Below are positions 13,602-62,645 of a stretch of 64,000 bases of DNA, piece after piece. The DNA lies in NCBI GenBank assembly GCA_001796335.1, contig MGMF01000010.1:1-64000 (forward strand). Reading direction: 5' to 3'. Under the pieces are notes generated by a model. The model was not told where the DNA came from. It worked only from the letters and a program-made list of their open reading frames with translations, and ran no database searches. Each line of letters begins with the position of its first letter. Positions within the stretch are counted from its first letter, which is position 1. This DNA comes from Chloroflexi bacterium GWB2_49_20 (lineage in GTDB: Bacteria > Chloroflexota > Anaerolineae > Anaerolineales > Villigracilaceae). The position numbers were made by a program, and so were the translations under genes.

Positions 13602-16019
13602 CTAGGGGTTGGATCCGTAGGTCGAACGGTACACGAGGTAGATCTCGTAAATATGACGTATGTAATCGCGGGTTTCGGAGTAACGTATCACTTCCAGAAA
13701 TAAGTCGGGATCATTGCCTGAAAGATCCTTCCAAATAATGGCATTTCCAGGGCCGGCATTGTAAGCTGCAAGGGTGGCATACAAATCCCCATCTAAATAA
13801 GCGCGATTAGAGGAAAGGTAAGCTGCACCAAGTCGAATGTTGATAAATGGGCGATAAAGATCATTCGATGTGAAATTGAGTGGCCAACCGAGATTGTCTG
13901 CAATTGATTGCCCAGTATCCGGCATGATCTGCATCAAACCACGTGCACCAGCTGATGAATGCACAAAGCCTTCAAATGCACTCTCCTGTGTAATCACGCT
14001 GAATAGAAAAAGGGGATTAAATTTGAACTCTTGAGCATAGGGTACCACCAAATCCTGGAAATAAGCGCCATAATTGATGTGGCTAAAAAAGCGGGGCGCT
14101 ACCAACATCTGGGTATAAGTTTCCAAGCCCGCTAGTTTAAGGAGCTGACGGGAGGAGGCAATGGCGCTGCGATACAGGCCTAGATCGAGAAGATAGTTTG
14201 CCAGGCGATAGCTGTCAATTGGATTTTCAGCGACAGCCAAACGTAGATCTTCGAATTCCAGGCGTGCCTCGTCATACAGCCCCAATTCCCAAAGTTCGGT
14301 TCCACGAATGAATCGGGTGTCTGCAGAAAGACTGCTTACTCCAGACAGATCGGTAGCTGGAGGCAGGTTGAAAGTAATACGGATCCAAGCCTCAGCTTCT
14401 GCTCGTTCGGCAACAGCATCATATTTGAAATTATAAGTAACGGGTGCTTCGAAAATGGATCGACCCAGAATCAGGCTGCGGGCGCGCTCACTGTAATAAC
14501 CAGTTAGGTCCAGGCCAGCCGCTAATTGAAAAGATTGTTGCGCAGCCGTGTTGTCAGCCAGTGCCTGCTGGGATTTGCCAACCCATAAATAGGCGCGCGC
14601 CTGGTCAGCAGGCAGGTTAGAAAAGATAAGATCCTTTTGGAAGATCACCAGAGCTCGGTCATAGGCTGCTAATCTATAGAGTTCAATACCTGCATTGAAA
14701 AGGGCGTCCGGAACGAGTTCGCTGGTCGAGTATTCCACTGCCAGCCGCTGCCACGTGGCCGAAGCGGCTTCGTACTGTCCACCCCGCTCTTGAATGCGGG
14801 CTGCTGAATTGAGATAATATGCAGCATTCGGGTGTGTAGGATAGTTGGTTACAAAGGTTAACAATGATTGAGCTGCACCCTGAAAATCATCCATATAGCT
14901 CCACAGAGTATAAGCACGTTCATCCCAGGCTGAATCCCAGTAGCGATTATCGGGGTAACTGTTGATCAATTGTGTCCAATTGTCAACGGCCTGTTGATAT
15001 TCGCCGTTTTCGCGCATAGTTAAAGCAAGGTAATAAAGTACAGTGCCATCATGGTCGAGATGGCTTAACTGGTATCTGTTGAAAGCAGCTAATGCAGGCC
15101 CATATTGGCCTGCAAAATAATCCACCAGACCGCGGTCAAGATCATCAACAGGAACGCCGGCATCGACAAGGGCTACCAGAGCAGAGTAGGAATCATAAGA
15201 GAGCGGATATTTTGCGACTGTATCCAAAAAATATGGATAAGCCTGGTCTGCTTGCCCCTGGTTCAGGTAAGTTTGACCAATCAGAAAGTCCATTTGAGCT
15301 TTGAGATAATCATCGTTTGTGTGTGCGGCAATGTCATTGTATATCGAAAGACTGGAAGGAATATCTCCAATGTAAGAGTACATCCTGGCGATTTTTATCT
15401 CAAGTTGATAGGTGTTCCCAATGTGGGAAGCCTGTAAAGCATCCTGATAAGCAGCCAGGGCGTTGGAATAATCGCCACTATTGGCAAGGGAATTACCTAG
15501 ATATTCCTGGATGTAGACGTCAATCAACCCAGGGTTGGCAGATAAATAGTTTGAATAAGCTGCAGCAGCCTCGCCATATTTTTGAAGAGCATCGTTGCTC
15601 TGCCCCTGAAGAAAATATGCATGCCGGGTATGTTGAGAATCGGGAAACCTGGAAATTAAATCTTTCAGATAAACCAGGGATTTATCAAAATAACCGTCCA
15701 GAAATTCCACTCGACTTAAACCCCACAAGGCACCTGCCCGCACCTGTTCATCACTGGATGCTGAGAACGCGGTCAGATATTCCTGCCGGGCGAGTAGATA
15801 ATCCCCATTAAATAAAGCCCTATCAGCATTGGACACACGCACTTCGGGAGTCGGCGTTGGAGTGGGTGTGGGAGATGGGGGTGGTGTGAGAGTGGGGAGT
15901 GGACTTGGAGTTAGAGTGCTGGATGGCGTTTCGGTTGGACCAAGCGTAAAACCAGGTCCACTGCATCCAACCAGGCTGATGGCTATCCACAGAATCATGG
16001 CAATTTGGAATTTTCGCAT
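13602..16019 (-). CDS. Lipoprotein lytic transglycosylase with TPR-like repeats
   Basis: This 805-residue lipoprotein has the lipobox LVGC at Cys19. A Pro/Thr linker (TPTPTPTPE) follows, then about 600 residues of helical TPR-like repeats (several A-x-Y-x-L-A-x-F and Y-x-A-A patterns). The C-terminal SLT domain (about 655-780) has the catalytic Glu in ITQESAFEG, then SSAGARGLMQIMPDTG and LAAYNAGPGNAI. It would cut the glycan chain of peptidoglycan with anhydro-muropeptide formation. The architecture resembles soluble Slt70-type enzymes with a longer TPR superhelix. Promoter placement suggests a leaderless mRNA starting at the ATG. Confidence 0.9.
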   Translation of the reverse strand: MRKFQIAMILWIAISLVGCSGPGFTLGPTETPSSTLTPSPLPTLTPPPSPTPTPTPTPEVRVSNADRALFNGDYLLARQEYLTAFSASSDEQVRAGALWGLSRVEFLDGYFDKSLVYLKDLISRFPDSQHTRHAYFLQGQSNDALQKYGEAAAAYSNYLSANPGLIDVYIQEYLGNSLANSGDYSNALAAYQDALQASHIGNTYQLEIKIARMYSYIGDIPSSLSIYNDIAAHTNDDYLKAQMDFLIGQTYLNQGQADQAYPYFLDTVAKYPLSYDSYSALVALVDAGVPVDDLDRGLVDYFAGQYGPALAAFNRYQLSHLDHDGTVLYYLALTMRENGEYQQAVDNWTQLINSYPDNRYWDSAWDERAYTLWSYMDDFQGAAQSLLTFVTNYPTHPNAAYYLNSAARIQERGGQYEAASATWQRLAVEYSTSELVPDALFNAGIELYRLAAYDRALVIFQKDLIFSNLPADQARAYLWVGKSQQALADNTAAQQSFQLAAGLDLTGYYSERARSLILGRSIFEAPVTYNFKYDAVAERAEAEAWIRITFNLPPATDLSGVSSLSADTRFIRGTELWELGLYDEARLEFEDLRLAVAENPIDSYRLANYLLDLGLYRSAIASSRQLLKLAGLETYTQMLVAPRFFSHINYGAYFQDLVVPYAQEFKFNPLFLFSVITQESAFEGFVHSSAGARGLMQIMPDTGQSIADNLGWPLNFTSNDLYRPFINIRLGAAYLSSNRAYLDGDLYATLAAYNAGPGNAIIWKDLSGNDPDLFLEVIRYSETRDYIRHIYEIYLVYRSTYGSNP

Positions 16020-16025
16020 ATGAAA

Positions 16026-16054
16026 CTTATAATGCTGAAATTAACTCGTGTCAA
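16026..16054 (-). promoter_or_regulatory. Promoter of the lytic transglycosylase gene
   Basis: On the minus strand, TTGACA (16054-16049), a 17-bp spacer and TATAAG (16031-16026). The expected start site is at about 16019, which is the A of the ATG. No ribosome-binding site is available, so translation is probably leaderless. Confidence 0.72.
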
Positions 16055-24850: not shown

Positions 24851-26688
24851 GGTTGTTGAGTATAGGTCGGGCGGGGTGTGAGTGTCAGGGTAGATGTAGG
24901 CGTTCTGTAATTCCAGGGAGTGCGGGTGGGCGTTTTGGATGGGGGGATAACATTTGTGGGAGTGATGAAGATCTCGGGTGGGTACACCTGGAGCATGGCT
25001 GTTTGCCAATCCAATCCGGAGGTAATAACAAATTCGCCAAAGCGAGTCCCATTAAAATAGCTACGCCAATTTGAAAGAGAAGGAAGACGATTCCATCCAT
25101 AATCCCTGGCCAAAGTGGTAATATCCACCCAGAAGCCTGACGGAATATTGGAAACCGGTTGCCCTCCCTGGTCATAAGCGATAGGGGTGCCGCTGAATCG
25201 TGCGTTAATATCCCAGGGGGACTGGTGCAAAGGTTCGCCCTGAGACCCATCCTGGGCTCGGGTGCGCAAGTAAACTCGCCAATAAGTTTGTTGCCCGATT
25301 TCTTCTTTTACAATAGCTATCCATCCAGCATCGAGAAGAATGGGATTCAGTGAAAATGCACGCCCTGTGTAAAGCCAATCATCACCAAGCCCCGGATTGA
25401 GCGGTATAGAGATTGGAACAAAAGCGTTATCAAGGCTGGCAAGTGCATCCCAACCAACATCTATGGCTATTCGCTGCCGTAGTGCATTAAAAGATTCGTC
25501 CAGTATGTCCAACATGCGGGCATAAGGTGCCTGAACATCGGGTAAGGCTACAAGGTTAAGACGATTATCGGGTACTTCCTGCACTGGCGTGGTGATGGTG
25601 ACAAACAAAGGGGTTGGAGTCAAATTAGATGCCAGGAGAAGAGAATCGGCCAGCGGGGAGGTTAAATTGACAAAACCGAAGTCAAAACCTCTCAGACTAC
25701 CTGTCAATAAAATAGGTGGCAAAGAGTAGTTACCTGTAAGGGCAAACGCCTCCAGGAAAGTATCGTTAGGGGCTGCAAGCAGTGAAAAGATTTGTGTTCC
25801 ATCGGGATTCCAAATAGGCCAATCCCCGCTCCCCAACCAAACTGGAGAGGCTGGCTTTAGTCTGTTTAAAATATAAATACCGTTCAATGAAGATTCTGAA
25901 GGAGTTGCACTCCAGGCGAGGAAATTACCATCAGGCGACCAGGCAGGATGAGTTTCGCTAGCTTGCTTGTTTTGACTGACGTTGAATAAACGCTCATCTC
26001 CGATTTTATCCAGGTCAGCGACCCAAATCTCGTTTTCACCGGTATGATTGGACACAAAAGCAATTTGACGTCCCAAAGGAGACCAGACAGGAGAATGTTC
26101 TGCCGATGGTTGATCGGTTAATCGTTGACGTTCTCCGGGGTTGTTAACCGAAAGTATTTCCAGGTCAAAATTCCCGTTTCGAAAGGTTTCGAAAACCAAC
26201 CATAATCCATCAGGCGACCAGGATGGAGAGGCTTCATACTCCATAGTATCAGTCAGACGCGTAATAATTCCAGACTGGAGGTTGAGTAGGTACAGATCCC
26301 AGTATCCATTTCGGCGCGAGGCAAACGCAACCTGATTACCATCCGGGCTAAGATTGGGTGTAATGTCGTCCCAAGGGTCAGCAGTCAACCTGGTTAGAGG
26401 CATACCTTGTGGAGAAAAGGCGCATAAATGCGCGTAGCCACTATCCATCATGGATAAGATATAAACTTCCTGGGGTCCAGCTGGCGGAACAGGTGTGGCA
26501 GTGACTACGTAAGGTGTTTGGGTGGCTGACAATGTAGAAGTATTTGATGGCAAGGGAGTTATTGTATCCACTTCAATGGTAGGTGGAGCTGTCGGCTCTT
26601 TTTGACCAGAGCAACCTAAAAGTAAAGTCGACAGTAATGTGAGCATCAAACAGGGTACGAAGCTGCGGAAGGAAGAGATTATATTCAT
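24847..26688 (-). CDS. TolB-like beta-propeller lipoprotein
   Basis: This 613-residue lipoprotein (lipobox LLLGC) has a Thr/Pro linker and then several PD40 (WD40-like TolB) blades: LSPDGNQVAFASRRNGYWDLYLLNL, WSPDGLWLVFETFRNGNFDLE, WSPLGRQIAFVSNHTGENEIWVA and WSPDGNFLAWSA. The second half (from about residue 370) is not recognised. It contains a SLDNAF-type region and another Pro/Thr-rich C-terminus. A monoderm-type organism would not use it in a Tol-Pal complex, so a cell-surface or envelope sensor role is possible. It is coupled to the M23 gene downstream by an ATGA overlap and to the small protein gene upstream. Confidence 0.83.
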   Translation of the reverse strand: MNIISSFRSFVPCLMLTLLSTLLLGCSGQKEPTAPPTIEVDTITPLPSNTSTLSATQTPYVVTATPVPPAGPQEVYILSMMDSGYAHLCAFSPQGMPLTRLTADPWDDITPNLSPDGNQVAFASRRNGYWDLYLLNLQSGIITRLTDTMEYEASPSWSPDGLWLVFETFRNGNFDLEILSVNNPGERQRLTDQPSAEHSPVWSPLGRQIAFVSNHTGENEIWVADLDKIGDERLFNVSQNKQASETHPAWSPDGNFLAWSATPSESSLNGIYILNRLKPASPVWLGSGDWPIWNPDGTQIFSLLAAPNDTFLEAFALTGNYSLPPILLTGSLRGFDFGFVNLTSPLADSLLLASNLTPTPLFVTITTPVQEVPDNRLNLVALPDVQAPYARMLDILDESFNALRQRIAIDVGWDALASLDNAFVPISIPLNPGLGDDWLYTGRAFSLNPILLDAGWIAIVKEEIGQQTYWRVYLRTRAQDGSQGEPLHQSPWDINARFSGTPIAYDQGGQPVSNIPSGFWVDITTLARDYGWNRLPSLSNWRSYFNGTRFGEFVITSGLDWQTAMLQVYPPEIFITPTNVIPPSKTPTRTPWNYRTPTSTLTLTPRPTYTQQP

Positions 26689-27047
26689 TCTTCTGGGTTA
26701 TTAATAGGGATGTTAAAGGTGACGACTCGTTTATCCACTTCTTCTTTTTCCGGGTAAAACAGACGGGCGGTAAGCTGGAATTCAACGGTGTTCTGTTTTG
26801 AGGATTTTATATGCATGGTGAGTTCATGTTTCCAACGAGGAGGTTCGATAATGCTGGCAGAACCGGCATCATTTCCCAAGGAGTCAGTCAGGTTAAGCTC
26901 TATATATGGAGATTGTTGAAATGGGGTGAGTTCCAGGTAGATATGAACACGGCGACCGTCTTCGTAAGGCTTTGCATCCAGGGAAATAATCCTGGTTTCT
27001 TTTGGAGGAAGTCGCTTCAAATCAGGGTCAATGTTGAAAAAGTCCAT
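26685..27047 (-). CDS. Conserved-looking protein of unknown function
   Basis: I do not recognise this 120-residue protein. It has no signal peptide and is rich in alternating beta-type segments (RVHIYLELTPFQQSPYIELNLTD, HELTMHIKSS, TVEFQLTARLFYPEKEE), suggesting one beta-sandwich domain. Its stop overlaps the TolB-like gene start (ATGA), so it is the first gene of a three-gene operon. The -10 box lies exactly six bases before the ATG, so the mRNA is probably leaderless. Confidence 0.75.
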   Translation of the reverse strand: MDFFNIDPDLKRLPPKETRIISLDAKPYEDGRRVHIYLELTPFQQSPYIELNLTDSLGNDAGSASIIEPPRWKHELTMHIKSSKQNTVEFQLTARLFYPEKEEVDKRVVTFNIPINNPEE

Positions 27048-27053
27048 TGGCTT

Positions 27054-27059
27054 ATTATA
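27054..27059 (-). promoter_or_regulatory. -10 box placed for a leaderless start
   Basis: TATAAT on the minus strand, followed by AAGCCA and then the ATG at 27047. The expected start site is the A of the ATG. The -35 is weak. Confidence 0.6.
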
Positions 27060-28301: not shown

Positions 28302-28332
28302 TTGACATTAACGTAACGTCATGGTTTATTAT
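28302..28332 (+). promoter_or_regulatory. MerR-type promoter and operator (19-bp spacer)
   Basis: TTGACA (28302-28307), a 19-bp spacer and TATTAT (28327-28332). The dyad TGACATTA-N3-TAACGTCA (28303-28321) sits in the spacer. MerR proteins untwist such over-long spacers to activate transcription. The start site would fall at about 28339, the A of the downstream ATG, so the regulator gene is probably autoregulated and leaderless. Confidence 0.78.
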
Positions 28333-28338
28333 CCAGAC

Positions 28339-29088
28339 ATGGGATACACTGTCAAGCAACTCTCCAGGCTGGCTGGCGTCAGTGTGCGCACACTGCATTA
28401 TTATGATGAGATTTCCATACTTAAGCCGACTTCGTTGGGGAGTAATGGCTACAGGTATTATGGCGAAGAAGCCTTGATCAAACTTCAGCAAATCCTGTTT
28501 TACCGGGAACTTGAGCTGAGCCTGGATGGCATTCGTCGGATAATGGATAACCCTAGTTTTGACTTGACATCAGCTCTGGAAAGTCACAAGGAAGCTTTGA
28601 AGGAGCGCATTGTACGCATGGAGCGATTGATCCGAACAGTGGACAATACACTTTCACATTTGAAAGGACAAAAAGACATGACAGATAAACAACTCTTTAG
28701 CGCATTTACAGACGACGAGCAAGAAAAATATGCCCTGGAAGCTGAAAAAATGTATGACCCGGAAATTGTGAGGGCTTCCAACCGTATATGGAAAAGCTAC
28801 TCAGCTGAAAAGAAGACCCAAATTCTGGAAGAAGGTAACAAGGTCTACACCGATATTTTGGCCAAAATGCATTTGGGGGCGGAATCTGATGAAGTACAGG
28901 CTTGCGTGGAACGATGGCGCAGGCATATGGATTATTTTTGGACGCCTTCATTGAAGCAGTTGGTCGGATTGGCGGAAGGATATAACAATCATCCCGGTTT
29001 TAAGGCAAATTTCGACAAAATCGATCCACGCCTGGCTGGGTTTATGCTGCAAGCGGTCAATGTGTATGTGGAAAAGAATGATAAATAG
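28339..29088 (+). CDS. MerR-family transcriptional regulator with TipAS domain
   Basis: This 249-residue protein has a MerR winged-helix DNA-binding domain (YTVKQLSRLAGVSVRTLHYYDE, 3-24), a dimerisation coiled coil (about 75-115) and a C-terminal TipAS-type antibiotic-recognition domain with the usual KYALEAEKMYDPEIVRASNRIWKSYS and WRRHMDYFWTPS segments. TipA proteins bind thiopeptide-like drugs and activate their own promoter. An ATG at 28321 lies upstream of the predicted transcription start, so the ATG at 28339 is preferred. No efflux target gene follows. 29089-29193 holds no clear feature. Confidence 0.9.
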   Translation: MGYTVKQLSRLAGVSVRTLHYYDEISILKPTSLGSNGYRYYGEEALIKLQQILFYRELELSLDGIRRIMDNPSFDLTSALESHKEALKERIVRMERLIRTVDNTLSHLKGQKDMTDKQLFSAFTDDEQEKYALEAEKMYDPEIVRASNRIWKSYSAEKKTQILEEGNKVYTDILAKMHLGAESDEVQACVERWRRHMDYFWTPSLKQLVGLAEGYNNHPGFKANFDKIDPRLAGFMLQAVNVYVEKNDK

Positions 29089-35603: not shown

Positions 35604-35632
35604 TTGACAGTCAATATGAACAAAGGTATGCT
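35604..35632 (+). promoter_or_regulatory. Promoter of xseA placed for a leaderless start
   Basis: TTGACA (35604-35609), a 17-bp spacer and TATGCT (35627-35632). Seven bases separate the -10 from the ATG at 35640. Earlier in-frame starts at 35586, 35616 and 35628 lie inside or upstream of the promoter. Confidence 0.65.
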
Positions 35633-35639
35633 AGCAAAT

Positions 35640-36878
35640 ATGTATCCAACGTCTTATTTGAAGGGCACACTCAGTCTGAGTGTGACGGATCTGACACGAT
35701 ATCTGCGTCAATTGATGGAATCGGATGAGATCCTTCAAGATGTATGGGTTCAGGGAGAGATCTCCAACCTGACAAGACCTGCATCAGGTCATATTTATTT
35801 CACGCTCAAAGATTCAGGCGCTTCCTTGCGTTGCGTGATGTGGCGAAGTAATATTACCCGATTGAAAACAGCTTTACAGGATGGCATGGCTGTAGAAGCC
35901 CATGGCAATATCAACGTGTATGAAGCCGGTGGGCAATATCAATTGAATACAGATAGTATTCGCTCAAAGGGAGAAGGAGTTCTTTACCAGGAATTTATAA
36001 GATTAAAAAACCTATTGGAAGCTGAAGGTTTTTTCGAAGTGGAGCGCAAGCGGTCAATCCCGGAATTTGTAAAACGGATTGGGATTGTTACTTCCCCAAC
36101 CGGGGCTGCCTTGCGGGATATGATAAATACCCTGAGAAGGCGAAATCCAATGTTGATGGTAACCCTGGCAGGATCAGCAGTTCAAGGCGAAGGGGCACCT
36201 GATGGGTTGGTATCTGCTATACAAAGTTTGAATCGATTAGTTCACCCAGATTTGATCCTGTTAGCGCGTGGCGGTGGATCCATTGAGGATCTATGGGCAT
36301 TCAATGATGAGCGCGTTGTACGCGCAATTGTCGCTAGTGAAGCGCCAATCATTACTGGTGTCGGCCATGAAACAGACTTTACTTTATCGGATTTTGCAGC
36401 AGACTTGCGAGCCCCCACCCCTACTGCAGCAGCTGAAATGGCAACGCAAGTATCCATAAATGACATTAAAGTTCAGATTGGCGAAATTTATTTCCAGTTG
36501 GTTGTTGCTATTAGAGAAATTCAAAATCAGAAACGAAGCGAAATGAGGGAATGCCGGAACAGGTTACAAAATTGCTCACCAGCCCGACGCATCCAAAGTT
36601 CATGGCAAGGTCTGGATACGATGACAAGAAGGATGATAACAGCACAGCGGCACCGGCTGTCGCTCGAAACAATACGTTTGCATGGAGTAGTTGAGAATTT
36701 GTCATCCCTAAATCCCCTGGATGTATTAAAACGAGGATATGCAGTTGTAACCAGAAGCCCGGACAACCGATTGATCACTCAAACCGAACAGGTGGAAGTT
36801 GGAGATCAATTAACAGTGCGTGTTAAGAATGGAAGCTTTCCTGTGCAAGTATCAGGCCAGGATCAGGAGAGAAAATGA
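35640..36878 (+). CDS. xseA: Exodeoxyribonuclease VII large subunit
   Basis: This 412-residue protein starts, after about a dozen residues, with SVTDLTRYLRQLMESDE, VWVQGEISNLTRPASGHIYFTLKD of the OB-fold domain, and continues with the catalytic-domain segments RIGIVTSPTGAALRDM, LARGGGSIEDLWAFNDE and ITGVGHETDFTLSDFAADLRAPTPTAAAE. With XseB it degrades single-stranded DNA from both ends. The ATG at 35640 gives the usual family N-terminus and fits the promoter. It overlaps xseB by four bases. Confidence 0.93.
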   Translation: MYPTSYLKGTLSLSVTDLTRYLRQLMESDEILQDVWVQGEISNLTRPASGHIYFTLKDSGASLRCVMWRSNITRLKTALQDGMAVEAHGNINVYEAGGQYQLNTDSIRSKGEGVLYQEFIRLKNLLEAEGFFEVERKRSIPEFVKRIGIVTSPTGAALRDMINTLRRRNPMLMVTLAGSAVQGEGAPDGLVSAIQSLNRLVHPDLILLARGGGSIEDLWAFNDERVVRAIVASEAPIITGVGHETDFTLSDFAADLRAPTPTAAAEMATQVSINDIKVQIGEIYFQLVVAIREIQNQKRSEMRECRNRLQNCSPARRIQSSWQGLDTMTRRMITAQRHRLSLETIRLHGVVENLSSLNPLDVLKRGYAVVTRSPDNRLITQTEQVEVGDQLTVRVKNGSFPVQVSGQDQERK

Positions 36879-37572: not shown

Positions 37573-39147
37573 TTACTTGGCAATTCGATTTTTGATAATT
37601 CTTGAGAGCGATTGCACTTCAGGAACTCGCATTACCCAGACAGAAATCATGTAAACCCCACCACCGATAAGCATTCCTCCAAAGGCTTTTAGCCAGGCTG
37701 GAAAAGCAGTAAATTGCTGAAGCCAGGCGAAGAGAGCCAATCCCATCAAAATTGATGCTGCCAGGGATTGCCCAAATCCATGGATTATGGTGCGAGAGTA
37801 TAACCCCTTTAAGCGTTTTCGCATGAGTATAAGCAAGGTGACTGCTTCGAGTGCAGTGGCCAATGAATTTGCCAAGGCCAGACCCCCATGAGGCATCCAT
37901 CCCATGTGGAGAAAAATTGCGGAAAAAGAAAAACTAAAAACCACATTAAGACCCATCGCTACCACCCCAACCATGACAGGGGTTTTGGTGTCGTGTAGAG
38001 CGTAGAAAGCCCGGGCTAGGATCTCCAGCAGGGAGTGGCCCACCAGTCCAACCGCATACCAGAGCAGAGCCCAGGCTACAAGATCCGTGGAATGTGCATT
38101 GAAATTTCCGCGCTGATAAAGTAAGGTGATGATTGGTTGACGCAACAGAATTAACCCTATAGAGGCTGGAACCGACAGGAATAACACGCCTCGCAGGGTC
38201 GCTACCAGGGAATGACGGACATCATCCATTCTTCCGAGAGCATATAGAGAGGCCAGAGTTGGCATCATGGCAGTTGCCACTGATTGGGCGATCACGACCT
38301 GCGCCATCAGCATCAGGGAGAACCCGTAATCAATACCCACCAGGCTACCGGCGCTCATCTGTGTAGCGAGTGCTGCATTCACCCAAAGATTTAGCGAGAC
38401 GACAGATACGCCTATCAAACGGGGAATCATCAATCGGATCACCTCGCCGACTGCCGGATTTCCAATTCCAAGATTGAATGAATAATTTCCTCTTTGTTTT
38501 AGCAGGCTGGGAACTTGCAGAAATAAATGCAAAAATGCTCCCAAAACAACCCCCCAGGCTAATCCATAAATTCCGATGTGCGGGGATAGAACCACTACAC
38601 CAAAGATCATTCCCAACTGGTACATGGCAGGAGTCAAGGCGGGAATTAGAAAAACCTGATGTGAGTTCAGGATACCCATAATCAGGCCACTGAGACCAAA
38701 TAGGATGGCGGATACCAATTGGATACGCAACAAACTCACTGTTAGCTGCAAGAGCTGAGGATCACTGGCAAGGCCGGGAGCCAGGGCGTAACGTACAATT
38801 TGTGGGGCGAAAATAAAGGCAATAAATCCCAACAGGCTTAATGATATTAAAACCAGGTTGGCAACAGCAGAAGCCAGTCTCCAGGCAGATTTTTTCTCCC
38901 CTTTTGCCAGGAATGCGGTAAAAGTTGGAATGAAAGCAGACCCAAGTGCACCACCTGCAATGAGATTAAAGAGGGTTTCAGAGACCCGGTTTGCAGCGAT
39001 GAAAGCGTCCAGTTCCACATAAGCCCCAAATGCCTGTGCAACCAAAATTCGGCGAATAAGACCGGCCAACTGGCTGAAAATAAATGCCAGCATAACGGTT
39101 CCGGCTGCACGGGCGATCTGGCGATTGGAATTGGACGCTTTATCCAC
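37573..39147 (-). CDS. murJ: Lipid II flippase MurJ
   Basis: This 524-residue protein of the MOP superfamily has about 14 membrane helices. Signatures include SQLAGLIRRILVAQAFGA, ARVSETLFNLIAGGALGSAFIP-type sequence and SLATALEAVTLL near the C-terminal half. MurJ moves lipid II across the membrane for peptidoglycan synthesis. The start is a GTG, with TATAAT eight bases upstream, so the mRNA may be leaderless. It converges with the DUF212 gene, leaving seven bases. Confidence 0.9.
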   Translation of the reverse strand: MDKASNSNRQIARAAGTVMLAFIFSQLAGLIRRILVAQAFGAYVELDAFIAANRVSETLFNLIAGGALGSAFIPTFTAFLAKGEKKSAWRLASAVANLVLISLSLLGFIAFIFAPQIVRYALAPGLASDPQLLQLTVSLLRIQLVSAILFGLSGLIMGILNSHQVFLIPALTPAMYQLGMIFGVVVLSPHIGIYGLAWGVVLGAFLHLFLQVPSLLKQRGNYSFNLGIGNPAVGEVIRLMIPRLIGVSVVSLNLWVNAALATQMSAGSLVGIDYGFSLMLMAQVVIAQSVATAMMPTLASLYALGRMDDVRHSLVATLRGVLFLSVPASIGLILLRQPIITLLYQRGNFNAHSTDLVAWALLWYAVGLVGHSLLEILARAFYALHDTKTPVMVGVVAMGLNVVFSFSFSAIFLHMGWMPHGGLALANSLATALEAVTLLILMRKRLKGLYSRTIIHGFGQSLAASILMGLALFAWLQQFTAFPAWLKAFGGMLIGGGVYMISVWVMRVPEVQSLSRIIKNRIAK

Positions 39148-39155
39148 GATGATGG

Positions 39156-39161
39156 ATTATA
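39156..39161 (-). promoter_or_regulatory. -10 box (TATAAT) directly upstream of murJ
   Basis: TATAAT on the minus strand ends eight bases before the murJ GTG. A start site two bases or fewer upstream of the codon is predicted. The -35 is weak. Confidence 0.5.
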
Positions 39162-41166: not shown

Positions 41167-41172
41167 TATAAT
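41167..41172 (+). promoter_or_regulatory. -10 box (TATAAT) directly upstream of the VanW gene
   Basis: TATAAT ends eight bases before the ATG at 41181. No ribosome-binding site fits between, so transcription probably starts at or within two bases of the ATG. Confidence 0.55.
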
Positions 41173-41180
41173 TTTGTTCC

Positions 41181-43061
41181 ATGACAAGCATAACTGAATC
41201 CTTTCCCCGGAGAACGTCCTTTTTCAATCAAGTATTAACAATTTTACTTGGCGGGGCGATTCTATTTATACTTTCTGTTCTGTTGATTTCAGGTTCCTAC
41301 CAGTTATGGTTTGCAGGTCGAATAATGCCAGGGGTTTCAGTGGCAGGTGTGGATCTTTCAGGGATGGCTCAAGATGGAGCAGCGCTAAAATTAAGCCAGA
41401 ATATGGTGTATCCATATTCTGGCTTAATTCTGTTCCGGGATGGTGAAAAATATTGGGTGGCTTCTCCGGCTGAACTGGGATTGGTGTTTAACTCCGGCGG
41501 GAGTGTGCAGGCAGCATATCAAATTGGACGCTCGGGGGGGCTGTTAAAAGGTCTTTCAATACAAGTAAAATCATGGCGAGATGGATCGGATCTGCCTCCA
41601 GTCATTCTGTTTGATCAACGAGTGGCATATGCTTACCTGCAGAAGATTGCGTCAGAGATCGACCAGCCTGTAATTGAAGCTACCTTGACTTTGAACGGTA
41701 TTTTGGTTATTGCAACCAATGGGCAAAACGGCCGGCTGTTGAATGTTGATTCAACGATGGCTTTATTGAATGCTCAACTGCAATCTTTCAGTGATGGCGA
41801 AGTGCCATTGGTTATAGATGAGATTGCACCCGTTATTATGGATGTCAATTCCCAGGCGGATATACTACGCAGTTTATTAAGTTCCCCGTTGGTATTATCT
41901 TTACCAAATCCCCAGACAAATGATCCGGGGCCTTGGACGGTTGAACCTGCTGCATTGGCAAACATGTTGAGAATCGAACGAGTAAATAATGGTGATAGCG
42001 CAGTTTATTCCATCGGTTTCTATGATTCTCAATTATCGCCAATTTTGGATGAAATTGAGACAAGTATCCAAATTAAATCACAAAATGCGAAGTTCATATT
42101 TAATGATGAGACACGCCAATTGGAGTTGATCCAACCAGCGATAATCGGTAAGACTTTCAATCGGGAGGCAACCCTGACAGCAATTCAACAACAAGCCTTC
42201 CAGGGTGTGCATGAAATTTTTGTCGAAGTTAACCTGGACCCGCCTCTGGTTGGAGATGATGCCCAAGCGTCAGCATTCGGAATTACAGAATTGGTATCTA
42301 CGGGTACCACATATTTTTGGGGCTCCGGTGAGGAGCGAATCCAAAATATTCAGACAGCATCCAGCCGGTTCCATGGGTTATTAGTAGCACCAGGCGAAAC
42401 ATTTTCGATGGGGGATGCCCTGGGGGATGTCAGCCTGGAAAATGGTTATGCTGAAGCTTTGATAATCTATGATAACCGCACAATCAAAGGCGTTGGCGGT
42501 GGAGTATGCCAGGTAAGTACCACGTTGTTCAGAGCGGTATTCCTGGGGGGATATCCAGTTGCGGAACGCCATCCCCATGCCTATCGCGTTGGCTATTATG
42601 AGCAAACTTCTTCTGGAGCTCATGACGCTAGTTTAGCCGGACTGGATGCAACCGTATATGTACCATTAGTGGATTTTAAATTTACCAACGATACACCCTA
42701 CTGGTTGTTAATGGAGACTTATGTAAATGTCGCTGCAAGGCGACTTACCTGGAAATTTTACTCTACAAATGACGGACGCATTGTCGAGTGGAATACCAGT
42801 GGACCCCAGGATGTAATCCCCGCACCCGAACCCCTTTTCCAGGAAAATCCTGAATTGGGTGCATTCGAGATGAAGCAAGTGGATTGGTCTGCAGATGGTG
42901 CTGTAATTAATATCAACCGAACGGTTATTAAGAACGGTCAGGTTTATTTTGCAGACAAGTTTTATACTGCCTACTCCCCCTGGCAGGCAATATGCGAATA
43001 CGGAAGTGGAGTGGAAGATCCGAAAGCACGCGCTGCAGAAAAAGGATTATGCCAACCTTAG
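41181..43061 (+). CDS. VanW-family protein with peptidoglycan-binding-like repeats
   Basis: This 626-residue protein has one N-terminal membrane helix (about 18-40), a G-V-D-L-S-type repeat region (PGVSVAGVDLSGM...AALKL), and two weakly similar extracytoplasmic domains. The C-terminal VanW domain has NIQTASSRFHGLLVAPGETF, IKGVGGGVCQVSTTLF and ERHPHAYRVGYY. VanW is linked to vancomycin-resistance clusters and spore-coat-like proteins, with no agreed activity. The gene contains an 18-bp perfect inverted repeat near codon 70. Confidence 0.9.
   Translation: MTSITESFPRRTSFFNQVLTILLGGAILFILSVLLISGSYQLWFAGRIMPGVSVAGVDLSGMAQDGAALKLSQNMVYPYSGLILFRDGEKYWVASPAELGLVFNSGGSVQAAYQIGRSGGLLKGLSIQVKSWRDGSDLPPVILFDQRVAYAYLQKIASEIDQPVIEATLTLNGILVIATNGQNGRLLNVDSTMALLNAQLQSFSDGEVPLVIDEIAPVIMDVNSQADILRSLLSSPLVLSLPNPQTNDPGPWTVEPAALANMLRIERVNNGDSAVYSIGFYDSQLSPILDEIETSIQIKSQNAKFIFNDETRQLELIQPAIIGKTFNREATLTAIQQQAFQGVHEIFVEVNLDPPLVGDDAQASAFGITELVSTGTTYFWGSGEERIQNIQTASSRFHGLLVAPGETFSMGDALGDVSLENGYAEALIIYDNRTIKGVGGGVCQVSTTLFRAVFLGGYPVAERHPHAYRVGYYEQTSSGAHDASLAGLDATVYVPLVDFKFTNDTPYWLLMETYVNVAARRLTWKFYSTNDGRIVEWNTSGPQDVIPAPEPLFQENPELGAFEMKQVDWSADGAVININRTVIKNGQVYFADKFYTAYSPWQAICEYGSGVEDPKARAAEKGLCQP
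41389..41429 (+). repeat. 18-bp perfect inverted repeat inside the VanW coding region
   Basis: Left arm 41389-41406 (AATTAAGCCAGAATATGG), loop TGTAT, right arm 41412-41429 (CCATATTCTGGCTTAATT). All 18 positions pair. It encodes KLSQNMVYPYSGLIL-type sequence that fits the surrounding fold, so it is not an obvious insertion. Confidence 0.9.
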
Positions 43062-54414: not shown

Positions 54415-55323
54415 TTAATCTTTCGTTGGTGCCAAGCTCTTATTATAGGAATTATGCACAAGATAGATACCAGCCAGGGTGATCATTCCACCGATAAGTT
54501 GTATGGATTGGGGCAATTCACCCAGCAGTGGAATGGCAAGCAAAGTTGTGAGAATTGGTTGACCAATCATTGTGGGGGCTACAACTGAGGCTGGCAAGTG
54601 CCCGAGAGCATATGAAACTGACATATAACCAAGGATCTGGGAGACCAATGCAAGCGCAAGGAAAACCAACCAGGATTGTTGGGAATAGCCACTGAAAGGA
54701 AATCCCAAAATGAGATTAATAAATAAGCTAAAAAGACTGGCGCTGATGACCATGATTGTCATGTATGAGAGTGGATCCAGGCTTTCACGGCCGCGTTGGG
54801 TGGAAAGCAGATAACCGGCATAAAAGAAACCCGCGGCAAGAGCCATCAGATCCCCCATGCCTAAACGGGGATGGATGATGAAATCATTACCCAGCACCAG
54901 GGCAGCTCCGCCAAGTGTAAGAGTCAGGCCAAACCAAAAACCTTTCGGCAACCGGTGGCGAAAGATAAAGATGGTGACCAGAGCAACCCAGATTGGAGCT
55001 GTGTTTCCCAATAAGGTGGCGTTAGAGGCAGTTGTGTAGAGGACGGATGAGTTCCAAAATGCGAAATCAAAAGCGGTGAAGAGACCTCCCAGGATTGGGA
55101 AGATCAAGTTTCGTCGTGTGATCCGATTGTTTTTTGAGTTTTTCCATGTGAAAAGGGGCAGCAGTATAAGCGAAGTGATAAGTAGCCGATAAAAGCCGGT
55201 TATTGTAGCAGGAGCGTCTGCCCAGCGTACGAACATGGCAGTTAAGCTAAGTGCCAGGATTCCAGTGGCAAGGGCGATGTAGGGAAGGAATTTTGACGAC
55301 TTGGGAATAGTGAATATATTCAT
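54415..55323 (-). CDS. EamA-family (DMT) transporter
   Basis: This 302-residue protein has ten predicted membrane helices in two EamA repeats, with AMFVRWADAPATITGFYRLLI and YTTASNATLLGNTAPIWVALV in the first and VSYALGHLPASVVAPTMIGQPILTTLLAIPLLGE in the second. The family exports metabolites or amino acids. TACAAT lies eight bases before the ATG at 55323; a TTG at 55332 is inside that box, so the ATG is preferred. The gene follows the HAD gene on the same strand. Confidence 0.87.
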   Translation of the reverse strand: MNIFTIPKSSKFLPYIALATGILALSLTAMFVRWADAPATITGFYRLLITSLILLPLFTWKNSKNNRITRRNLIFPILGGLFTAFDFAFWNSSVLYTTASNATLLGNTAPIWVALVTIFIFRHRLPKGFWFGLTLTLGGAALVLGNDFIIHPRLGMGDLMALAAGFFYAGYLLSTQRGRESLDPLSYMTIMVISASLFSLFINLILGFPFSGYSQQSWLVFLALALVSQILGYMSVSYALGHLPASVVAPTMIGQPILTTLLAIPLLGELPQSIQLIGGMITLAGIYLVHNSYNKSLAPTKD

Positions 55324-55357
55324 AACGCCCAATTGTAACCGTTATTCCGGGAGAGGA

Positions 55358-62210: not shown

Positions 62211-62471
62211 TTAATTTTCCTTATTAGTTTTGTGGTCTTGTTTTTGCTTGTATTTTTCGTGTATGCTGCGTACCGAATTAAAACGGGCTCCTGGAGAGGC
62301 AGACTTTCCACTGAGCCGCAAACGAATGCCAATGAAGATGAAAATCAGACTAATTAAGAAATAGTCAAAATGCGCCGTCCCACCCAACTCGTAGGTCACG
62401 AAAACCATTATTAAACCTATTCCTACCAGGATCAGGAATGTACCTACGCGCGGAACAAGCTCCGATTGCAT
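62211..62471 (-). CDS. Small two-helix membrane protein of unknown function
   Basis: This 86-residue protein has two hydrophobic helices (VGTFLILVGIGLIMVFVTYEL and FDYFLISLIFIFIGIRLRL) and a basic, polar tail (SVRSIHEKYKQKQDHKTNKE). I do not recognise a family. The ATG at 62471 has TATAAT ending six bases upstream, so a leaderless mRNA is likely. A longer frame to 62612 would cross this promoter. It probably starts the run that continues with the CoA-transferase genes. Confidence 0.72.
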   Translation of the reverse strand: MQSELVPRVGTFLILVGIGLIMVFVTYELGGTAHFDYFLISLIFIFIGIRLRLSGKSASPGARFNSVRSIHEKYKQKQDHKTNKEN

Positions 62472-62477
62472 ATCCTT

Positions 62478-62483
62478 ATTATA
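62478..62483 (-). promoter_or_regulatory. -10 box (TATAAT) placed for a leaderless start
   Basis: TATAAT on the minus strand, then AAGGAT and the ATG at 62471. The AAGGA is one base from the ATG, too close to act as a ribosome site. A weak -35 (TTAGAA) lies 17 bp upstream. Confidence 0.62.
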
Positions 62484-62603: not shown

Positions 62604-62645
62604 TAAAAACATACGCCCGGGTTTAGTTCAAAAACCCAGGCGTAT
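62604..62645 (-). terminator. Rho-independent terminator of the aldehyde dehydrogenase gene
   Basis: On the minus strand ATACGCCTGGGTTT pairs with AAACCCGGGCGTAT with one mismatch, followed by GTTTTTAAA. It begins about 20 bases after the stop at 62662. Confidence 0.85.

Follow-up and report, generated by a model that had tools for sequence, protein, structure and literature searches.

It was found that eight genes in the window, meaning the whole stretch of 64,000 nucleotides analyzed here (part of contig 10 in a draft genome of 3.37 Mb), have a -10 box a few bases before the start codon. These genes are very probably leaderless (with a probability of about 0.9), and their mRNAs would begin at the start codon. 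What was observed is the sites themselves, their excess over chance, their spacing, the near-absence of Shine-Dalgarno (SD) motifs, and the conservation of the layout. Leaderless expression is already known; what is new here is its faithful inheritance, in that related genera often have the layout at the same genes. In this little-studied group of Chloroflexota, it appears as an inherited and gene-specific trait that is mixed with SD-led genes, and therefore relatives allow a comparison of the two modes one gene at a time.

The eight window genes

An earlier note on this DNA had listed -10 boxes lying 6 or 7 bases before the start codon in five genes and 8 bases before it in three. All eight boxes lie at the positions given for them, and the spacings hold at all eight genes. 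On the reverse strand, a gene for a 120-residue protein (p120, 26685..27047), predicted to be leaderless, has TATAAT at 27054..27059, 6 bases before its ATG at 27047. The TPR-SLT lytic transglycosylase gene (SLT, 13602..16019, reverse strand) has TATAAG at 16026..16031, 6 bases before ATG 16019, and a -35 box TTGACA at 16049..16054, 17 bases from the -10 box. On the forward strand, a MerR/TipAS regulator gene (28339..29088) has TATTAT at 28327..28332, 6 bases before ATG 28339, with TTGACA at 28302..28307; the 19 bases between the two boxes hold a ACGTNACGT-type element. The xseA gene, encoding the exonuclease VII large subunit (35640..36878, forward strand), has TATGCT at 35627..35632, 7 bases before ATG 35640, and TTGACA at 35604..35609, 17 bases from the -10 box. 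The fifth of these genes, encoding a small membrane protein of 86 residues (62211..62471, reverse strand), has TATAAT at 62478..62483, 6 bases before ATG 62471, and an in-frame ATG lies further upstream at 62612. The three genes with a spacing of 8 bases are murJ for the lipid II flippase (37573..39147, reverse strand; TATAAT at 39156..39161 before GTG 39147), the gene of a VanW/PG_binding_4 protein (41181..43061, forward strand; TATAAT at 41167..41172 before ATG 41181), and an EamA transporter gene (54415..55323, reverse strand; TACAAT at 55332..55337 before ATG 55323). The EamA gene is the weakest of the eight cases; it lies 34 bases downstream of a gene on the same strand and is an exception to the first-gene rule described below. 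Six of the eight gene labels in the earlier note were recovered in Pfam (SLT, TipAS/MerR, Exonuc_VII_L, MurJ, VanW, and EamA), while the small membrane protein, a membrane protein by hydropathy, gave only a sub-threshold match to DUF6249 and the 120-residue protein matched no Pfam family.

Bacterial RNA polymerase starts about seven bases downstream of a -10 box. At these genes, the housekeeping RNA polymerase would bind the -10 box and begin transcription at a purine some seven bases further on, predicted to be the start codon's own first base (A or G) or a purine one to three bases before it. Since transcription would start at, or one to three bases before, the start codon, the mRNA would carry no leader and no SD site, and the ribosome would initiate on a 5′-terminal start codon. 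Where transcription starts, which sigma factor acts, and how the ribosome initiates are inferred. In Deinococcus-Thermus, a -10 motif adjacent to ORFs was shown experimentally to be a promoter for leaderless mRNA (Zhong et al. 2025, PMC12340547). According to the available passages of that paper, the motif lies about 6-7 bp before the ORF, as it does here, and it cannot be replaced by a ribosome-binding site in Deinococcus (PMC12340547). In contrast, nearly one third of the genes in D. radiodurans have the motif, in the form TANNNT, whereas roughly 4-6% of the genes have it here, in the near-consensus form TATAAT. The experimental evidence for transcription from such a box comes from Deinococcus (PMC12340547); the domain-wide survey in the supplement of the same paper may cover Chloroflexota.

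Position of -10 boxes relative to start codons

Is this layout more frequent than expected by chance? To sample the genome, the window was combined with 40 stretches of 20 kb each, which together amount to 864 kb or 26% of its length. Genes were called by a home-made script from coding potential and start codon alone, so that the starts are free of any influence of SD or -10 motifs, although some of them are misplaced, for example those of VanW and xseA. The earlier note expected an excess of -10 motifs over shuffled upstream regions at this position, and the count was positive. A -10 box with at least five of six matches lies 6-9 bases before the start in 45 of 691 genes, while 300 dinucleotide shuffles (690 genes) gave a mean of 13.8 (sd 3.8, maximum 25) and control windows further upstream gave 13-26 genes (mean 18.6). 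The exact TATAAT was found at 6-9 bases in 22 genes, as compared with a shuffle mean of 1.9, and is distributed as 11, 5, 3, and 3 genes at 6, 7, 8, and 9 bases, with a total of one at 0-5 bases. SD-like motifs have their maximum 4-10 bases before the start in the same sample. The same count in G003, a relative of the same family, gave 23 of 338 genes versus a shuffle mean of 4.0 (control windows 1-15, mean 6.5), and a small Escherichia coli sample gave none of 83 genes versus 1.0 in shuffles. The excess over chance is about 26-31 of the 691 genes in the genome itself and 17-19 of 338 in G003, or roughly 4-6%.

These counts bear on the idea of chance mimicry, in which AT-rich sequence that keeps the region ahead of a start codon accessible to ribosomes resembles -10 boxes. 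TANNNT is in fact common upstream of genes in the sample. However, the excess is found only at spacings of 6-9 bases (45 genes); at 0-3 bases 6 genes have a box and at 2-5 bases 4, and the excess is not reproduced by dinucleotide shuffles. Such mimicry is hardly credible, and it was ruled out by the shuffles together with the spacing profile.

The 3′ end of the 16S rRNA has an intact anti-SD sequence GGATCACCTCCTTTCT, and therefore the genome has retained the partner of SD sites. The genome is mostly SD-led, with roughly 4-6% of its genes in a second, putatively leaderless mode, mainly the first genes of transcription units. Leaderless (TA-led) genes, including those of Chloroflexi, were already published (PMC3160421), and a similar proportion was found there; Zheng et al. 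2011 gave 4.7% of genes (4.0-5.7) for four of twelve Chloroflexi genomes, which is close to the roughly 4-6% found here. The TA-led genes also share with the present genes a -10-like hexamer whose first T lies about 12 bp before the start, with a TAtaaT form at medium GC (PMC3160421). In contrast, neither gene-by-gene conservation within Chloroflexi nor shared divergent promoters are reported in the available passages of that study (PMC3160421). A literature search on titles and the beginnings of abstracts, with partial coverage, likewise found no description of this conservation or of a shared leaderless divergent promoter.

For comparisons between gene groups, a mixture (EM) classifier with free choice of start was used. 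Its null is inflated because shuffling destroys SD sites too, and it degenerated on the small E. coli sample. Since it labels many shuffled sequences (23-45, as compared with 65 of 693 real genes), the position tests are the better and main evidence. In the window, 7 of the 62 called genes fall in the leaderless class at a posterior above 0.5 (those starting at 16019, 27047, 28339, 39147, 41181, 55323, and 62471), while xseA at its ATG was missed. The class used for the comparisons of unit position and membrane proteins has a posterior above 0.8 and comprises 81 genes, 49 from the genome itself and 32 from G003, with false positives among them. Of these, 67 are the first in their transcription unit, versus 305 of 533 SD-led genes (p=8e-6). 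The class has 79 ATG, 2 GTG, and no TTG start codons, while 20 of the 533 SD-led genes start with TTG. A -35 box with at least four of six matches was found in 21 of 81 genes versus 15 of 81 at control offsets, which is no clear excess, although the SLT, xseA, and MerR genes each have TTGACA. Members of the class that lie elsewhere than in the window include mutS, mutL, ligA, maf, fmt, and tsaE, as well as genes for a ubiE-type methyltransferase, an RlmKL-type methyltransferase, alanine racemase, and transporters. The DNA-repair and replication genes mutS, mutL, and ligA of the sample share the layout with xseA of the window.

Inheritance of the layout among relatives

Orthologs of seven of the eight window genes (EamA excluded) were searched in 31 genomes of the family and the order, one per genus and including the genome itself. 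Ortholog starts were picked by their nearness to the expected position, blind to the promoter, and a looser -10 definition was applied (either TATAA or at least four of six matches, position 2 being an A and position 6 a T). In total, 164 loci were entered and 161 used; L048, L065, and L097 fell out, and L075-L079, L107, and L163-L165 were not entered. In 108 of the 161 loci, including all seven of the genome itself, a -10 hexamer is present at a spacing of 5-9 bases; it is absent there in 53, while six control windows of the same width gave 14-19. An SD-like motif was found in just 4 of the 161 loci. The hexamer is present in 76 of 107 loci of the family (controls 7-14) and in 32 of 54 loci of other families of the order (controls 4-8). 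By gene, the counts are 14 of 27 for p120, 20 of 24 for SLT, 17 of 26 for xseA, 20 of 28 for VanW, 21 of 27 for murJ, 8 of 11 for MerR/TipAS, and only 8 of 18 for the small membrane protein. The GTG start of murJ recurs in 11 of 27 loci, and the box is present in 10 of these 11.

The relatives' proteins share 26-68% identity with those of the window, and the DNA around the boxes is unalike by inspection. Each gene tends to keep its own version of the promoter: TATAAG with TTGACA (TTGAC-like) in many SLT loci, a TATCCT-like -10 in many xseA loci, and, in most MerR loci, a long spacer that contains a conserved element. Of the relatives without the p120 box, two (L029 and L031) have a stop codon just upstream of the start; this would suit translation from an operon there. 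A long spacer between the -35 and -10 boxes is a trait of MerR promoters. The ACGTNACGT-type element in the spacer of the MerR/TipAS gene (window 28302-28332; L167-L176) recurs in most relatives inspected, which suggests a possible autoregulation of this predicted leaderless regulator. Gene finders that rely on ribosome sites may misplace starts in this group.

The strongest case for the predicted leaderless layout is a divergent gene pair outside the window, which by its sequences is a natural experiment. In the same genome (L211:11639-14080, C22), mutL and a gene for a HAD hydrolase (Pfam) diverge with 36 bp between their starts, and each has TATAAT 6 bases before its ATG. All 19 family genomes have a -10 box 6-8 bases before mutL, and it is the exact TATAAT at 6 bases in 15 of them. 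In other families of the order, the box was found in only 3 of 10 mutL loci, one of the ten being masked by N. In relatives, mutL and HAD often lie 19-21 bp apart, with both boxes fused into one palindromic ATTATAAT.

These loci also bear on the possibility that the promoters are ordinary and the annotated starts wrong, with transcripts starting slightly further downstream and translation beginning inside the gene, at a start codon that has a ribosome site of its own. The start calls were indeed made from sequence alone, and several genes have further in-frame starts. However, the start of MutL is in little doubt because it begins at the N-terminus common to its orthologs, and this start is the one with the -10 box at 6-8 bases throughout the family. 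Among the counted loci of the window genes, the matches begin within query residues 1-32, many at 1-8. It is very unlikely that internal starts account for the layout.

A scan of named genomes relied only on the HAD alignment and took no account of promoters; the best 80 of 354 confirmed loci (L271-L350) were taken. By their record names, from which the order name for this pair is taken, nearly all of these 80 are Anaerolineales, Anaerolineae, Anaerolinea, Chloroflexi, or similar; one Chloroflexus sp. and one Herpetosiphon sp. are among them, and both sit among the others in the tree. Five loci without a recognized HAD start and five without a recognized mutL start were dropped, which left 70. 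In these 70 loci from the best 80 of 354, a box with at least five of six matches lies 5-9 bases before mutL in all 70 (exactly 6 in 67) and before HAD in 67 (exactly 6 in 60). The distance between the two starts in the same 70 genomes, again from the best 80 of 354 loci, ranges from 19 to 1235 bp; it is 20 bp in 28, 19-23 bp in 31, 24-200 bp in 31, and more than 1 kb in 8. All 31 loci with a distance of 19-23 bp have ATTATAAT, a symmetric -10 box between the divergent starts. The 28 loci of 20 bp represent 26 different sequences, whose invariant part is the ATTATAAT palindrome and the start-codon bases only. The short-distance class requires 15 changes on the HAD protein tree, nine of which are forced by well-supported branches. 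As the boxes are kept through these changes, the distances come and go while the distance from the -10 box to the start stays constant. The pair provides a natural series with a varying intergenic distance and a fixed -10-to-start distance, and it predicts a shared promoter that can be tested.

The Anaerolineales mutL/HAD promoter is probably close to the smallest divergent promoter that DNA allows. In an intergenic region of 20 bp, one palindromic ATTATAAT would serve both strands, and each mRNA would begin at its own start codon, with no room for an own -35 box, an operator, or a ribosome site outside the coding sequence of the other gene. The shared box would have been split and joined many times, each gene keeping its own -10 about 6 bases from its start. 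Bidirectional promoters in which one symmetric -10 serves two divergent starts are known, with common distances of 18, 10, and 23 bp between the transcription starts (PMC12825309, PMC10268837). The mutL/HAD promoter resembles them in its single symmetric -10 box, as far as the available parts of these papers describe them (PMC12825309, PMC10268837), but differs in that the predicted transcription starts are the start codons, which leaves about 20 bp between the two genes and about 21 bp from one start to the other. The word "leaderless" does not occur in the main text of either paper (PMC12825309 and PMC10268837).

In several split mutL/HAD promoters of 59-70 bp, an apparent hairpin between the two boxes was seen by eye (L300, L301, L305, L320, L333, L338, L339, L341, and L346). 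Two of them were folded, which gave -31 kcal/mol (z -6.0) for L339 and -14.4 (z -2.1) for L333. No further exact copy of GCCCGCAAATT was found in the samples of the genome itself and G003 when the hairpin was sought as a repeated element.

Membrane proteins, distribution, and other divergent pairs

The earlier note had read the genes as leaderless and had added that many of them are envelope-protein genes, which may mean that they share a control by translation mode. The first part is upheld by the excess at the given spacing, the scarcity of SD motifs, the conservation, the bias toward first genes, and the mutL/HAD pair. The second, in which the leaderless genes are an envelope regulon switched together when conditions favor leaderless initiation, would suit the window, where five of the eight genes concern the membrane or the cell wall (SLT, MurJ, VanW, EamA, and the small protein by hydropathy). 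It was assessed by Kyte-Doolittle hydropathy with a 19-residue window, comparing the 81 genes of the leaderless class with 305 SD-led first genes, and no significant excess of membrane proteins was found. Any transmembrane segment is present in 38 of 81 versus 125 of 305 (p=0.38) and at least three segments in 15 of 81 versus 48 of 305 (p=0.61), while an N-terminal segment shows a weak trend in favor of the regulon, with 30 of 81 versus 81 of 305 (p=0.07). A real enrichment would be diluted by the false positives among the 81 genes. On the other hand, mutS, mutL, ligA, xseA, and several cytosolic enzymes use the same mode. A common envelope regulon is very unlikely.

The distribution of the layout was assessed in 151 Chloroflexota genomes drawn for this purpose. 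The pattern TATAAT-6-ATG has 37-86 matches per genome in 12 family members, the genome itself included. The reversed pattern is a weak control, and the shifted spacing TATAAT-13-ATG was added for 26 hand-picked genomes of the 151 (12 from the family, one from elsewhere in the order, six from elsewhere in the class, and seven from the rest of the phylum). Summed over the 12 family members, there are 734 matches at spacing 6 versus 177 at 13, and each member is higher at 6. The one genome of the same order outside the family has 32 versus 16. Summed over the remaining 13 Chloroflexota, there are 323 matches at spacing 6 versus 366 at 13, with no excess overall and with exceptions in both directions (21 versus 11 in G034, 74 versus 113 in G018). 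Some genomes of other families outside these 26 lie above the weak reversed-pattern control (for example 24 versus 3 in G009, 32 versus 6 in G068, and 16 versus 0 in G027), and the leaderless mode may exist outside Anaerolineales too.

Divergent pairs with short intergenic regions were also found at other loci. In G096 (L238:394-1288), an M50 peptidase gene and a DUF951 gene diverge from 34 bp, and in G048 (L239:443-1657), the genes of a VWA7_N-domain protein and a cobalamin adenosyltransferase diverge from 42 bp; each of the four genes has a -10 box at leaderless distance. In the genome itself (L213:5818-7490, C23), a region of 35 bp separates two divergent genes, one for an S4/FtsJ-domain methyltransferase, which I take to be TlyA-like, and one for a UbiA prenyltransferase. 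This region is a perfect inverted repeat with 14-bp arms, and each start lies six bases from TAAAAT.
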